DNA from: Carbonactinospora thermoautotrophica
Lineage (GTDB): Bacteria > Actinomycetota > Actinomycetes > Streptomycetales > Carbonactinosporaceae
DNA: 64,000 nucleotides
NCBI RefSeq assembly: GCF_001543895.1
Contig: NZ_JYIJ01000018.1
Span: forward strand, 62,001-126,000
Reading direction: 5' to 3'
Under the pieces are notes generated by a model. The model did not search any database and had not been told where the DNA came from. It worked only from the letters and a program-made list of their open reading frames with translations. The position numbers and the translations under genes are program-made. How positions within the stretch are numbered: position 1 is the stretch's first letter; the number at the start of each line of letters is the position of its first letter. This document shows, one piece after another, positions 47,979 to 59,227 of the stretch.

Positions 47979-49180
47979 CTAGACGATGCCCATGCGCAGC
48001 CCGAGCCCGATGAGGTCCTGCTTGCGGGCCGACCGCTTGGTCAGCGCCTGGACGGTTTCGCGGTCGGCCTGGTGGTTGCGCACGTGCTGGGGGGCGAGGT
48101 CTTCGGCCCGCAGCAGGGCGCGCAGCGCCTCGTCGCGGTTGCCGCGGTAGTGGTGGGCGCGGGCGACGTCGATCCAGTGATGGCTGACGCGCTCCCGGGA
48201 CAGGTGGCTGGGCGGGTCGACGTCCTGAGCCTTGGTGAGGGCAAGCTTGCCGTCACGCATCTCGACGGGGATGGCGACGGAGTAGATCTGCACGTTGGCC
48301 AGGCCGAAGCACAGGTTCCAGTACGGGGTCTCGTCGACGTCGAGGGTCTCGGCGGTGGCGGCGGCCTGCTGCCAGTGGGACCAGGCGGTGTCGCGGTCAC
48401 TGGCGCGGGCGGCGACGAGGGCGGCCTTGAGGTGGTGGGCGCCCCACAGGGCGAGCACGTCGGGCCGGTCGTCGGCCAGTTGCGGGGCGAGGGTGTCGAG
48501 GGTGTCGGAGATGATGCTCAGGGCGTCGTCGTAGGCGCCAGCGCACATGAACTCGCCGGCGTAGTGCCACTGGGCTGCGGCGAGGCGCAGCGGGTCGCCA
48601 GAACGCTCGGCGGCCCACAGCACCCGCTCCACCGCGATGCTGGCCTCGGTGGTGTAGCCGAGCTTGTACAGCATGACCTCGGCGGCCTCCAGCGCGTCGC
48701 ACCATAGCCCGTACACGGTGGACAGGTCGGGCTCGGGCAGCACGTGTGGGCGGCGATCCGCAGGTCCCGTAGCAACGGCGGCACCTGTGCGCCCAGCTTG
48801 CTGTAGCGGGCGGCCTGGCGCAGCCGGGACACCTGGGTAGTGCGGCGGCGCAGGTCAGCGAGGGTGATCTGATCGGCCTCGGCGGCGCTGATCCGGGGTG
48901 GGCGGTTGTAGGCGAGCAGCTCCAGTTTGATCGCGCCCACGGCGGTGTGTCCGGCGTCCTGCTCGGGGCTGGCGGGCACGAACGGCTGGCCGGTGATCTC
49001 GGTGGCGTGCGCGCCGAGCACCTGGGCGAGATGGACGATCACCGAGACCGAGTCCAAGCTGCGGCGGCCCTGCTCCCACGCCTTGATCGTGGCCACCGTG
49101 TACCCGGACTCATCCGCCAGCCGCCGCTGCGTCCAGCCCTTGCGCAACCGCAGCCGCGCCAGTCGTTGCCCGTTGGTCAT
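47979..49180 (-). pseudogene. Frameshifted XRE-family regulator with TPR-like C-terminus
   Basis: The N-terminal part from 49180 (LARLRLRKGWTQRRLADESG, an HTH_3 domain, to about residue 145) and the C-terminal helical-repeat part (47979-48743: DLSTVYGLWCDALEAAEVML ... HWIDVARAHHYRGNRDEALR) are in different frames, joined by a one-base shift near 48740. Together they would make a regulator of about 400 aa of the kind paired with RsbW-like ATP-binding proteins in actinomycetes. It is probably inactive, unless the N-terminal HTH alone is used. Confidence 0.7.
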
Positions 49181-49480: not shown

Positions 49481-49508
49481 TTGGCTGGACCCCTGCCTGC
49501 GGTACCCT
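49481..49508 (+). promoter_or_regulatory. Promoter of the leuS leader
   Basis: TTGGCT (49481-49486) and TACCCT (49503-49508) with 16-bp spacing. The leader-peptide ATG (49516) lies 7 nt after the -10, so it coincides with the predicted transcription start. Confidence 0.55.
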
Positions 49509-49515
49509 TTCTCAC

Positions 49516-49551
49516 ATGCGAGCCGTGCAGCTCCTTACCGGGCCGCGCTGA
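49516..49551 (+). CDS. leuS leader peptide (11 aa, tandem Leu codons)
   Basis: The short ORF encodes MRAVQLLTGPR with adjacent leucine codons CTC CTT; CTT is rare in this GC-rich genome. It has no ribosome site and appears leaderless. Its stop codon lies inside the left arm of the first attenuator stem. Slow translation at the Leu codons would signal low charged tRNA-Leu. Confidence 0.65.
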   Translation: MRAVQLLTGPR

Positions 49552-49645
49552 CAGCGGCAGGCGCCGGCCGTCGTCGAATCACACGGCCTGAGCCGGCGCC
49601 CGGTCAGCGCGGCGACCCCTCGTGACTCGATCGAGGGGCTTTTTT
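49543..49645 (+). promoter_or_regulatory. Transcription attenuator of leuS
   Basis: The first structure is an outer stem CCGCGCTGAC (49543-49552) with GTCAGCGCGG (49603-49612), containing an inner stem GGCGCCGG (49560-49567) with CCGGCGCC (49593-49600). The second is an intrinsic terminator: CCCCTCG (49616-49622), CGAGGGG (49632-49638) and a T-tract at 49640-49645. leuS begins 38 nt later. The layout fits ribosome-mediated attenuation. The antiterminator pairing is not obvious by eye. Confidence 0.65.
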
Positions 49646-49683
49646 GTTGGTTCCGGACGGAGCGACCGAGCGATGAGGACCCG

Positions 49684-52539
49684 ATGACCGAGACGACGCA
49701 GAACAGCAGCCCCGGTACCAGCACCGCGCCGTACCGGTACACCGCCAAGCTGGCGGGTGAGATCGAGGCCAAGTGGCAGGACCGCTGGGAGCGGGAGGGA
49801 ACCTTCCAGGCCCCGAACCCGGCCGGTCCGTTGGCCGAGCCGGAGAAGGTCGCCGGGCGCCCGAAGCTGTACGTGCTGGACATGTTCCCGTACCCGTCGG
49901 GCGCGGGCCTGCACGTAGGCCACCCGCTCGGGTACATCGCCACGGACGTGTACGGCCGCTTCAAGCGGATGACCGGCCACAACGTGTTGCACGCGCTGGG
50001 GTACGACGCGTTCGGCCTGCCGGCGGAGCAGTACGCGGTCCAGACCGGTCAGCACCCGCGGATCACCACTGAGAGCAACATCGCGAACATGCGCCGCCAG
50101 CTGCGCCGCCTGGGCCTGGCGCACGACAAGCGGCGCAGCGTGGCGACCACGGACGTCCAGTTCTACCGCTGGACGCAGTGGATCTTCCTGCAGATCTACA
50201 ACGCCTGGTACGACAAGGAGCAGGACAAGGCCCGCCCGATCCATGAGCTGGTCGAGGAGTTCGAGTCCGGGCGGCGGCCCACCCCGGACGGGCGTCCGTG
50301 GCGCGAGCTGACCGAGATCGAGCGCCGCAAGCTGATCGACGACCACCGGCTGGCGTACCTGTCCGAGGCGCCGGTGAACTGGTGTCCGGGCCTGGGCACG
50401 GTGCTGGCCAACGAGGAGGTCACCGCCGACGGGCGCAGCGAGCGCGGCAACTTCCCGGTCTTCAAGCGCAGCCTGCGCCAGTGGATGATGCGCATCACCG
50501 CGTACGCGGACCGGCTGCTGGCCGACCTGGACAAGCTGGACTGGCCCGAGCCGATCAAGCTGATGCAGCGCAACTGGATCGGCCGGTCCGAGGGCGCGCA
50601 CATCGACTTTCCGGTCACCGCGCCGGACGGCTCAGAACGCAAGATCCGGGTGTTCACCACGCGCCCGGATACCGTGTTCGGCGCTACGTACATGGTGCTG
50701 GCGCCCGAACATCCGCTGGTCGACGAGCTGGTGCCCGAGGAGTGGCCGGCCGACGTGCCCGAGAAGTGGACCGGCGGCGCGCCGAACCCGCTGGCGGCGG
50801 TGTCGGGGTACCGCAAGGTGGCGCAGGCCAAGAGCGACGTCGAGCGCCAGGCCGGGGACCGGGACAAGACCGGCGTGTTCATCGGCGTGTACGCGACCAA
50901 CCCGGTCAACGGGGCGCGGATCCCGGTCTTCATCGCCGACTACGTGCTGATGGGGTACGGCACCGGCGCGATCATGGCGGTGCCCGGCGAGGACGAGCGG
51001 GACTGGGAGTTCGCCGAGACCTTCGATCTGCCGATCATCCGCACGGTCCAGCCGCCGGCCGACTTCGACGGCAAGGCGTATGCCGGCGACGGGCCGGCCA
51101 TCAACTCCGGCTTCCTGGACGGCCTGCACGTGGCCGACGCCAAGCGCAAGATCATCGAGTGGCTGGAGGCGAACGGCGTCGGCGAGGGCACGGTCACGTA
51201 CAAGCTGCGCGACTGGCTGTTCAGCCGCCAGCGGTACTGGGGCGAGCCGTTCCCGATCGTGTACGACGAGCACGACATGCCGGTGGCGCTGCCGGAGTCG
51301 ATGCTGCCGGTCGAGCTACCGGAGGTCGCGGACTACTCGCCGCGCACGTTCGACCCCGATGACGCGGACACCGACCCCGAGCCGCCGCTGGCCCGCGCCA
51401 AGGACTGGGTCGAGGTGACCCTGGACCTGGGCGACGGTCCCAAGCGGTACCGCCGGGAGACCAACACGATGCCCCAGTGGGCGGGCTCGTGCTGGTACGA
51501 GCTGCGCTACCTGGACCCAACCAACGAGGAACGGTTCTGCGACCCGGAGAACGAGCGGTACTGGATGGGCCCGCGCGGGGAAGGCCACCCGGGCGGCGTC
51601 GACCTGTACGTGGGCGGCGTCGAGCACGCGGTGCTGCACCTGCTGTACGCGCGGTTCTGGCACAAGGTGCTGTACGACCTGGGCCACGTGTCGTCGAGCG
51701 AGCCGTTCTACCGGCTGTTCAACCAGGGCTACATCCAGGCGTACGCGTACACCGACGAGCGCGGCGCGTACGTCCCGGCGGCCGAGGTCGAGGAGATCGA
51801 CGGCAAGTTCTACTGGCAGGGCAAGCCCGTCCGCCAGGAGTACGGCAAGATGGGCAAGTCCCTGAAGAACGTGGTCACCCCCGACGAGATGTGCGAGGAG
51901 TACGGGGCGGACACGTTCCGGTTGTACGAGATGTCCATGGGCCCGCTGGACGTGTCCCGGCCCTGGGAGACCCGCGCGGTCGTCGGCTCGTTCCGGTTCC
52001 TGCAGCGGGTGTGGCGCAACCTGATCGACGAGGAGACCGGCGCGATCCGGGTCGTCGACGAGCCCGCCGACGACGACACCCGCAAGCTCCTGCACCGGAC
52101 CATCGACGGGGTGCGGGCCGACATGGAGAACCTGCGGTTCAACACCGCGATCGCCAAGATCATCGAGCTGAACAACCATCTGGTGAAGCTGGACCGCCCG
52201 GTGCCGCGCGAGGTCGCCGAGCCGCTGGTGCTGATGCTGGCCCCGCTGGCCCCGCACGTCGCCGAGGAGCTGTGGGAGCAGTTGGGGCACGACAAGTCGC
52301 TGGCGTACGAGCCGTTCCCGGTCGCCGACCCGCGCTGGCTGGTCGAGGACGAGGTCACCTGCGTGGTCCAGGTCGCCGGCAAGCTGCGCGACCGCCTGCA
52401 GGTGCCGCCGACGATCTCTGAGGCCGAGCTGGAGAAGCTGGCCCTGGAGTCGGCCGCGGTGCAGCGGGCGCTCGGCGGCAAGCCGGTCCGCAAGGTGATC
52501 GTGCGCGCGCCCAAGCTGGTGAACGTGGTGCCGGGCTGA
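49684..52539 (+). CDS. leuS: Leucyl-tRNA synthetase
   Basis: A 951-aa class I synthetase charging tRNA-Leu. The HIGH-type motif is [10 protein letters not shown] (about residue 75). A CP1 editing domain with [20 protein letters not shown] (about 320-345) hydrolyses mischarged tRNA. The KMSKS motif appears as KMGKSLKN (about 722). A C-terminal anticodon-binding domain follows. ATG 49684 is preceded by GAGGA. It is controlled by the attenuator upstream. In related genomes it lies close to tRNA-Ala; here 27 kb of accessory DNA separates them. Confidence 0.96.
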
Positions 52540-56689: not shown

Positions 56690-59227
56690 GTGCGCGTAGA
56701 TCCACGCGATGACTCCCGGCCGGCGCACCTGTTGACCCGGTGGCACCGGGCTCTCGACCGGTTACCCGATGGAGGGCGCCTGGACCGGCAGCCGGCGCGT
56801 TCGCGACCGGCCCGCGAAGTGCCCGCCGAGATACCCCCTGACCTGCGGCTGGTACCGGGAACGCTCGCGCTGTGGGCGGGGAACGGGGTGTGCCTGGGCC
56901 TGCCGCCGCCGGCGGCGCTGGCGGGCGGCGGATGCGTCCTGGCGGTGGCCGGGCTGCTCCTGCTGTCATGGCGGCGCCGGTGGACGCGCATCCTGGCCGG
57001 GGCGCTCGCCTGCGCAGCGGCCGGCGCCTCGGTGGCGGGCATCCGGGTGGCCGGGCTGCTCGCCGGGCCGGTGCCGGAGCTGGCCGGGCAGTCGGTCGTT
57101 GCAGAGCTGGTCGTCACGGGGGATCCGGAACGGGGGGAACCGCGGGTCCGCGGCTCTGCTCTCGCCCGGGCCGTGGTCACCGTCCCCGCCCGCCTGGTCT
57201 CGGTGACGTCCGGCCGACGGACGTACGCCGTGCGCAGCCCGGTGATCGTGCGGGCCTACGGGCCCGGCTGGAGCGACCTGGTTCCCAGCACGCGGGTGCG
57301 GGTGAGCGGCCGGCTCGATCCCGGCCGGCCCGAACGCGGGGTCGTGGCCACTCTGACCCCGCGCGGCCCGGTGGCCGTCGTGGCCGGACCGTCACGGGTC
57401 CAGGAGCTGGCCAGCCGGTTGCGTTCCGGGCTACGCGGGGCGGTCGGCGAACTGCCACCGGACGTGCGCGGGCTGGTGCCGGCCCTGGTCGTCGGCGACA
57501 CCAGCGGGATGCCGGCCGACCTGGTCGAGGACTTCCGCACGGCTGGGCTCAGCCACGTGACTGCTGTCTCGGGTTTCAACGTCGCCGTGGTCTTCGGGGT
57601 CGCCCTGCTGGCCGCGCGCTGGTGCGGCCTGACCAGGACCGCGCCGCTGGTGGGGGCGGCGGCGATCGCCGGATTCGTGCTGCTCGCCCGGCCGCAGCCC
57701 AGCGTGTTGCGCGCCGCCGCCATGGGCCTGCTCACCGTGGTCGCTCTCCTGACGGGGCGCCGCAAGCAAGCGGTGTCCGCGCTGTGCGTCGCCGTACTGG
57801 TGCTGCTGCTCGCCGACCCGTGGCTCGCGCGTTCGTACGGGTTCGCGCTGTCCGTTCTCGCGACGTGCGGGATCCTGCTGCTGGCTCCGCGGTGGCGCGC
57901 GGCGCTCGCCCGCCGGCTGCCCGGCCCGCTGGCCGACGGGATCGCCGTCCCGGCGGCGGCTGAGGTGGCCTGCGCCCCGGTGGTCGCGATGCTGTCCGCC
58001 CACGTGAGCCTGGTGGCGATACCCGCCAATCTGCTCGCCGCCCCGGCCGTGGCACCCGCCACGATCTTCGGGCTGCTCGCCACGCTGGCCGCCCCGATCC
58101 ACCACGGCGCCGCCGAGCTGCTGGGCCGGCTCGCCGGGCTGGCCGCCCGCTGGATCGTGACCGTGGCGCGGCACGCCGCCGCGCTTCCCGGCGCGGCGGT
58201 GAGCTGGCCCGGCGGGGTGACGGGCGCCGTCACCCTGGCGGGTGTGCTGCTGGTTGTGCTGCTCCTCGCGCCGTACGCGCTGCGGCACCGGGCGGTGACC
58301 GCGCTCACCGTCGCGCTGGTGGCCGTGTGGGCCGTGCGGCCCGTCCTCCCCGACGGCTGGCCGCCGCGGGGATGGGTGGCGGTGGCGTGCGACGTGGGCC
58401 AAGGCGACGCACTCGTCTTGGCCGCCGGAGAAGGGGTCGGCATCGTGGTCGACACCGGGCCGGACCCGCGTGCCGTCGACCGGTGCTTGCGTGATCTCGG
58501 CGTCCGGCGCGTCCCGCTGATCCTGCTCACCCACTTTCACGCCGACCACGTCGAAGGGCTCCCCGGGGTGCTGCGCGGCCGCCACGTGGGTGAGATCGAG
58601 GTGGGTCTGGTGCCCGAGCCTCGTGGCGAGGTGCGGCGGGTCGAACGCTGGGCCCGGGCGGCCGGTGTCCCGGTGACCCGCGCCGCGATCGGGGAGCAAC
58701 GCCGGATCGGCGACCTGAGCTGGCGCGTGCTGTGGCCGGCCCGCGTGATCCGCGGCGAGGGGTCCGTGCCGAACAACGCCAGCCTGGTGGTACTCGCCGA
58801 ACGCGCCGGCGTGCGGATGCTGCTCACCGGCGACCTCGAGACCGCCGCCCAGCGGGCCCTGCTGCAGCAGGAGCCGACCCTCCGCGCGGACGTACTCAAG
58901 GTTCCGCATCACGGCTCCGCGTTCCAGGACCCGCGCCTTACCTGGACGGTTCAGCCGCGCCTCGCGCTGATCCCGGTCGGTCGCGACAACCCCTACGGCC
59001 ATCCGGCGCCCAGCACGCTCGTCCTGCTTCGGGCCACGGGCGCGCGCGTGCTGCGCACCGACACCGACGGGGAGATCGCCGTCGTGGGGTCTGCCGGCCG
59101 GCTCGGGGTGGTGACCCGCTCGACCTCGAAGCGCCGGGCGCGTCGCCGCCGGTTCCCGGGGCCGCCCATCACGGTGGCGGCGGAGGGTTGCCGGACCGTC
59201 CCCGGGACGTGGAATGCTGGCTTTTGA
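56690..59227 (+). CDS. comEC: ComEC DNA-uptake channel
   Basis: An 845-aa polytopic protein. An N-terminal DUF4131-like region is followed by the competence channel domain (GLSHVTAVSGFNVAVVFGVA is the family signature) with about ten transmembrane helices. A C-terminal metallo-beta-lactamase-like domain with HFHADHVEGLPG and KVPHHGSAFQDP probably degrades the non-transported strand. GTG 56690 follows GGAGGTGA by 7 nt. The stop overlaps the holA start. Confidence 0.93.
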   Translation: MRVDPRDDSRPAHLLTRWHRALDRLPDGGRLDRQPARSRPAREVPAEIPPDLRLVPGTLALWAGNGVCLGLPPPAALAGGGCVLAVAGLLLLSWRRRWTRILAGALACAAAGASVAGIRVAGLLAGPVPELAGQSVVAELVVTGDPERGEPRVRGSALARAVVTVPARLVSVTSGRRTYAVRSPVIVRAYGPGWSDLVPSTRVRVSGRLDPGRPERGVVATLTPRGPVAVVAGPSRVQELASRLRSGLRGAVGELPPDVRGLVPALVVGDTSGMPADLVEDFRTAGLSHVTAVSGFNVAVVFGVALLAARWCGLTRTAPLVGAAAIAGFVLLARPQPSVLRAAAMGLLTVVALLTGRRKQAVSALCVAVLVLLLADPWLARSYGFALSVLATCGILLLAPRWRAALARRLPGPLADGIAVPAAAEVACAPVVAMLSAHVSLVAIPANLLAAPAVAPATIFGLLATLAAPIHHGAAELLGRLAGLAARWIVTVARHAAALPGAAVSWPGGVTGAVTLAGVLLVVLLLAPYALRHRAVTALTVALVAVWAVRPVLPDGWPPRGWVAVACDVGQGDALVLAAGEGVGIVVDTGPDPRAVDRCLRDLGVRRVPLILLTHFHADHVEGLPGVLRGRHVGEIEVGLVPEPRGEVRRVERWARAAGVPVTRAAIGEQRRIGDLSWRVLWPARVIRGEGSVPNNASLVVLAERAGVRMLLTGDLETAAQRALLQQEPTLRADVLKVPHHGSAFQDPRLTWTVQPRLALIPVGRDNPYGHPAPSTLVLLRATGARVLRTDTDGEIAVVGSAGRLGVVTRSTSKRRARRRRFPGPPITVAAEGCRTVPGTWNAGF

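Follow-up and report, generated by a model that had tools for sequence, protein, structure and literature searches.

Transcription attenuators have been predicted upstream of leuS in Streptomyces avermitilis and Streptomyces coelicolor, and the accessible text of that report labels them as classical (Seliverstov 2005, PMC1262725). In Streptomyces lividans, leuS is preceded by the leader leuL2 (MRAVRLLLSEPR), which is described as a leaderless transcript followed by a hairpin and a uridine stretch, and most of the eight leaders of this species are described as leaderless, according to the accessible part of the study (PMC8079986, 2021). Leaderless leaders would thus be the rule in S. lividans and not the exception and, since leuS of Streptomyces has already been described in print as regulated by a leaderless attenuator, the leader analyzed here is a further member of an existing series. 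Leaderless poly-Cys attenuators are reportedly present in mycobacteria, to go by the title of a cited study; together with the S. lividans leaders, this gives no support to the original prediction for the present locus where it considered a leaderless attenuator peptide to be uncommon. A literature search, with most subscription journals outside its reach, found no wider survey of the leuS leader.

Other described systems share part of this design. The Corynebacterium ilvB-II motif (ilvBNC) also shows an upstream ORF across a P1 stem and a terminator with a U run behind it, and its medium-dependent reporter expression has been published; however, it precedes another gene, contains Ile, Leu and Val codons, and its proposed antiterminator overlaps the terminator, as described in the accessible text (PMC10272879). 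The LEU element of actinobacterial leuA has a leader ORF with Leu codons, as in our leader, but the accessible text describes it as a pseudoknot whose base stem involves the Shine-Dalgarno box of leuA (PMC1262725). Membership of the LEU element, which is defined by a position upstream of leuA, was rejected because the gene at this locus is leuS. Finally, trp-type attenuation shares a leader peptide with control codons and a terminator before the gene, and differs in its competing antiterminator helix, which was not detected in our leader.

The window analyzed, a stretch of 64,000 nucleotides from Carbonactinospora thermoautotrophica, shows the following features in and behind the leader:

49503-49508, + strand: -10 box TACCCT (TANNNT), read from the sequence, with a spacer of 7 nt to the ATG
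49516-49551, + strand: leader-peptide ORF of 11 codons, MRAVQLLTGPR and stop, from sequence and order comparison
49531-49536, + strand: control Leu codons CTC CTT, from sequence and comparison
49542-49552, + strand: 5' arm of stem P1, GCCGCGCTGAC, with the stop codon inside at 49549-49551, from covariation
49603-49613, + strand: 3' arm of P1, GTCAGCGCGGC, from sequence and covariation
49616-49622, + strand: 5' arm of terminator P3, CCCCTCG, 2 nt (GA) after P1
49632-49645, + strand: 3' arm of P3, CGAGGGG, followed by C and TTTTTT, from sequence and covariation
49684-52539, + strand: leuS, leucyl-tRNA synthetase, the gene behind the leader (NCBIfam TIGR00396 leuS_bact)

The ORF reads ATG CGA GCC GTG CAG CTC CTT ACC GGG CCG CGC TGA. 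P1 is an 11-bp stem whose 5' arm starts 8 nt downstream of the C of CTT, and P3 is a 7-bp stem with a 9-nt loop, its 3' arm at 49632-49638 and the Ts at 49640-49645. The leuS product reached 934.7 bits against TIGR00396, with a cut-off of 548.4. With a TANNNT box at this distance (7 nt) from the ATG, the transcript is expected to begin with this codon or next to it. The parts of the leader claimed in the original prediction were largely recovered: the promoter 7 nt 5' of an 11-codon ORF is read directly from the sequence, and the long stem containing the ORF stop codon corresponds to P1, with the TGA inside its 5' arm. The tandem Leu codons with a rare CTT are borne out by codon counts, CTT being absent from the 78 Leu codons of leuS and accounting for 22 of 1112 (2.0%) in the long high-GC3 open frames of the window. 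A stem and six Ts do stand before leuS, but to call this terminator perfect was slightly generous, as one C separates the stem from the Ts.

Judged by its sequence, the peptide MRAVQLLTGPR is plainly a relative of LeuL2, one codon shorter. The two leaders share their position directly 5' of leuS, a leaderless-type ORF of the form MRAVxLL(L)xxPR with a Leu run (the 5' end in the window being predicted), a stem over the ORF end, and a terminator with a T run. The window leader differs in having one Leu codon fewer, a longer P1 loop and the 9-nt terminator loop. The overlapping antiterminator that the label classical implies for Streptomyces leuS was not found in the leaders analyzed. We propose, with a probability of roughly 70%, that the leader is a transcription attenuator in which translation of a leaderless leader peptide would report the charging of leucyl-tRNA and set the readthrough into leuS, with a switching step between adjacent stems as the preferred form; that it is an attenuator, by any switching step, is very probable. 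The leaderless leader-peptide attenuator of leuS claimed at the outset is thus supported by conservation, by compensatory changes in both stems and by the leaderless ortholog of S. lividans described in the accessible text of PMC8079986. The further suggestion that leaderless initiation is itself part of the sensing found nothing in its favour, given that a conserved spacing of 6-7 nt is expected of any leaderless gene.

Tests on the single sequence were silent. The folding energy of the 220-nt leader was no better than that of shuffles (z -0.49), and a simple promoter and terminator scan of the leader detected neither a consensus promoter nor a terminator, its settings being too strict for elements of this kind; P3 was missed because the scan had a loop limit of 8 nt and the P3 loop has 9 nt. 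The leader had no match in Rfam, where one tRNA alone reached the gathering score in the window, and a T-box or other known RNA family was rejected on this ground. The case for the leader therefore rests on comparison.

The order set contains 60 leuS upstream regions, own genome included, chosen via the LeuS protein, which is present in all 60 order genomes. Alignment of leuS leaders in relatives, proposed earlier as a check, shows the same design in all 60 regions: a TANNNT box followed after 6 or 7 nt by the start codon of a short ORF encoding Leu-Leu, CTT as the last Leu codon, and GCCGCGCTGA with a matching 3' arm. In one leader (L018), a second, longer candidate ORF start fits too. Three leaders (L052, L059 and L061) have an ORF that closes with TAG ahead of the P1 5' arm and nonetheless keep the arm, which argues that it is kept as RNA and not as code. 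Covariation of P1 and P3 was not shown within the order alone, where 94 of 500 shuffles were as good, since both stems are too invariant there, and the class-wide set was needed.

A covariance model (R1) built from 30 of the 60 order leaders matches 157 of 394 class genomes and 64 of 138 genera. Sixty R1 matches were fetched and 55 of them precede leuS; the exceptions are L132, at a contig end, L146, before a gene that is LeuA-like by eye, L150, before leuC, and L148 and L151, before citramalate synthase. The L150 leader (G215:C53), MRTVLLLLSGRDETSF, has four Leu codons and was thus found before leuC by the model of the leuS leader. Furthermore, a 23-base pattern representing the non-Streptomyces form of the leader was scanned in named genomes and occurs in at least 120 loci, including Amycolatopsis, Jiangella, Kitasatospora, Streptacidiphilus, Georgenia and Actinopolymorpha. 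Among the matches listed, leuS lies behind 116 of 121 pattern places, and the remaining five have just 47-345 nt of sequence. Two LeuS types are found behind the leaders (n=55): 26 show 61-80% and 29 show 32-42% identity to the window LeuS over the aligned part. One genome (G251; L093 and L094) has two LeuS genes, 34 and 76% identical to the window LeuS, each with its own leader. Among the class genomes that lack an R1 match, 20 were scanned: two (L281 and L287) carry a diverged leader ORF and abutting hairpins, so that the model misses some leaders, and the scan found no abutting hairpin pair in the other 18, among them G071 and G093, each with a LeuS 75-77% identical to that of the window. 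As promoter and stems are part of the model that picked the class set, the 60 order leuS regions are the only set free of selection bias.

The class-wide alignment contains 91 rows aligned to the structure, five of them antisense matches, and 11 of the 16 pairs of P1 and P3 have changed on both sides in it. Pairs 4-8 and 10 of P1 show one standard pair swapped for another across the 109 distinct leaders, with both sides changed. Changes on both sides were counted in 61 cells of P1 and P3 versus 7.9 in shuffles, with none of 500 shuffles as high, and the columns are 98.4% paired, a value that falls to 40-55% when they are slid by 1-3 columns. By these compensatory changes, P1 and P3 are real stems, as far as sequence comparison tells.

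For the geometry counts, 112 of 120 leaders were kept, 109 of them distinct; the eight dropped (L108, L141, L145, L146, L148, L149, L150 and L151) lacked a start codon or frame that the script could recognize, had a P1 below 6 bp, or preceded a gene other than leuS. Of the 112, 109 have CTT as the last Leu codon and three have CTC. P1 starts 8 nt after the first base of this codon, a distance demanded by the search pattern. P3 was sought in the range of 0-6 nt from the end of P1, and the two stems are separated by 0-2 nt in 109 leaders, by 3 nt in two and by 4 nt in one. The spacing from box to start codon is 6 nt in 97 leaders and 7 nt in 15. The position of the stop codon is freer: measured from the start of the last Leu codon, it begins at 6 nt in nine leaders, at 15 nt in 93 and at 18-33 nt in 10, that is, just before or at the base of P1 in the nine and farther downstream than usual in the 10, so a stop codon within the stem is usual and not required. 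Of the 63 terminators behind the leader pattern among the matches listed, 62 adjoin a hairpin of 9 bp or more, versus three of 23 other terminators at the same loci and one of 23 with shuffled upstream DNA, which makes for a small control. The useful yield is the breadth of the leader (64 of 138 sampled genera), together with a constant geometry, a free stop position and no overlapping antiterminator found.

Textbook attenuation, with an antiterminator overlapping the terminator, is the reading in print for Streptomyces leuS: antiterminator and terminator hairpins are described for S. avermitilis and S. coelicolor in the accessible text of Seliverstov 2005 (PMC1262725), and the Corynebacterium ilvB-II motif has P1 over the upstream ORF, a terminator, and an antiterminator using the right shoulder of the terminator, according to the accessible text of PMC10272879. 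We consider it improbable here, as the classical overlapping antiterminator was not found by constrained folds, an anchored helix scan or complementarity counts. The constrained folds, with the ribosome placed along the ORF, covered 14 of the 60 order sequences. Folding with the ribosome stalled on the Leu codons had been named as a check in the original prediction, and in these 14 sequences P1 and P3 coexist with the ribosome at any Leu codon. P3 stays formed at nearly all ribosome positions in the 14, with a lowest value of 0.34 (L043, ribosome at the stop codon). Until its 3' arm has been transcribed, the 5' arm of P3 is largely unpaired, wherever the ribosome stands (means 0.03-0.31, n=60). 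The anchored scan of 109 leaders found no conserved helix at a fixed place that competes with P3; the best fixed-place helix beyond P1, P3 and shifted P1 registers occurs in 59 of 109 leaders, joins the ORF start to the P1 3' arm and leaves P3 untouched. Segments complementary to the P3 5' arm are less frequent than in shuffles, both in the leader (1 of 112 versus 11.0) and in the P1 loop (1 of 112 versus 18.1), and P1 loops complementary to the P3 3' arm are only somewhat more frequent (44 of 112 versus 32.3). The leader region including the Leu codons pairs with the P3 3' arm in 96 of 112 leaders versus 55.5 shuffled, in several registers; taken alone, this pairing would work in the wrong direction for a leucine switch. 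As no conserved helix that would overlap P3 as an antiterminator was found, the folds lend no support to the label classical, which suggests that the mechanism is less settled than the printed label. These are equilibrium folds, blind to kinetics and to polymerase contacts.

Antitermination by an adjacent and not an overlapping stem, in which P1 would hinder P3, is the switching step we favour, if only tentatively and at somewhat worse than even odds. In all 112 leaders, the distance from the last Leu codon to the stop codon is 6 nt or more, and a ribosome at the stop codon would, by its usual footprint, cover the P1 5' arm. With enough Leu-tRNA, the ribosome would proceed to the stop codon and block P1, P3 would form, and transcription would end before leuS. 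When Leu-tRNA is scarce, the ribosome would stall on the Leu codons and P1 would be the first to form; because P1 sits directly on the base of P3, it may impede the closing of P3 where the RNA leaves the polymerase, and leuS would be transcribed. This raises the question of whether a stem that adjoins a terminator, sharing no bases with it, can decide termination. Against the account, the equilibrium folds show P1 and P3 to be compatible, and the outer part of P1 would lie under a ribosome that stands at the last CUU. In the opposite proposal, P1 would aid termination by shielding its own 3' arm from P3 or by stacking on P3; a ribosome stalled at the last CUU would cover the outer half of P1, which would fail and leave P3 weaker, whereas after completion of the peptide and departure of the ribosome both stems would form. 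In favour of this proposal, the two stems are compatible and abutting, masking P1 weakens P3 in a few folds (0.34 in L043, 0.74 in L003 and 0.80 in L051), and with P1 starting 8 nt from CUU the edge of a stalled ribosome would fall inside P1, taking its footprint from general knowledge. However, masking P1 leaves P3 at 0.97-1.00 in 11 of 14 folds, and the ribosome would have to be released before the polymerase gets to the T run. We regard a helper role of P1 as less likely than not. A constitutive upstream terminator beside a small ORF unresponsive to leucine is very improbable: although leader codon changes at ilvB and leuA of S. coelicolor behaved non-classically, according to the accessible text of Seliverstov 2005 (PMC1262725), the Leu codons and the rare CTT (109 of 112) are conserved here, as are the frame and the distance to P1, and leuS stands behind nearly all of the pattern places listed above.

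The adjacent-stem arrangement occurs a second time in the same genome (G000:C16, L272), where a leader VQHQLGLIISRARRHRG with tandem Ile codons lies upstream of cimA at 56690 (- strand). Its start codon, GTG, lies 6 nt after CAGACT, and a 10-bp stem is followed by an abutting terminator with six Ts. Among the cimA upstream regions of the order (n=30), four show the abutting design together with an ORF (L272, L312, L317 and L321) and L302 has the abutting design before cimA without an ORF; the leaders before citramalate synthase in L148 and L151 are similar. The literature search returned, among the matches listed, no paper joining citramalate synthase and a leader peptide. To judge by this parallel, the design would not be restricted to leucine. 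An attenuator class extending across the Actinomycetes, in which a ribosome-controlled stem abuts the terminator (0-2 nt) and acts on it through contact at the exit of the polymerase instead of through competing pairs, is a doubtful extension; if true, the design would span Leu codons before leuS and Ile codons before cimA, with two LeuS types that differ in most of their residues, and would be a class without an Rfam match in the window.

Many class-wide leaders have a TGTCCGGAC-like stretch after the T run, just behind it in L092, L098, L099 and L145, and the window has GGTTCCGGACGGAG at 49649-49662. A divergent ORF at 48518-49180 (- strand) adjoins the leader, and its start (MTNGQRLARLRLRKGWTQRRLADESG...) resembles, by eye only, a helix-turn-helix regulator.
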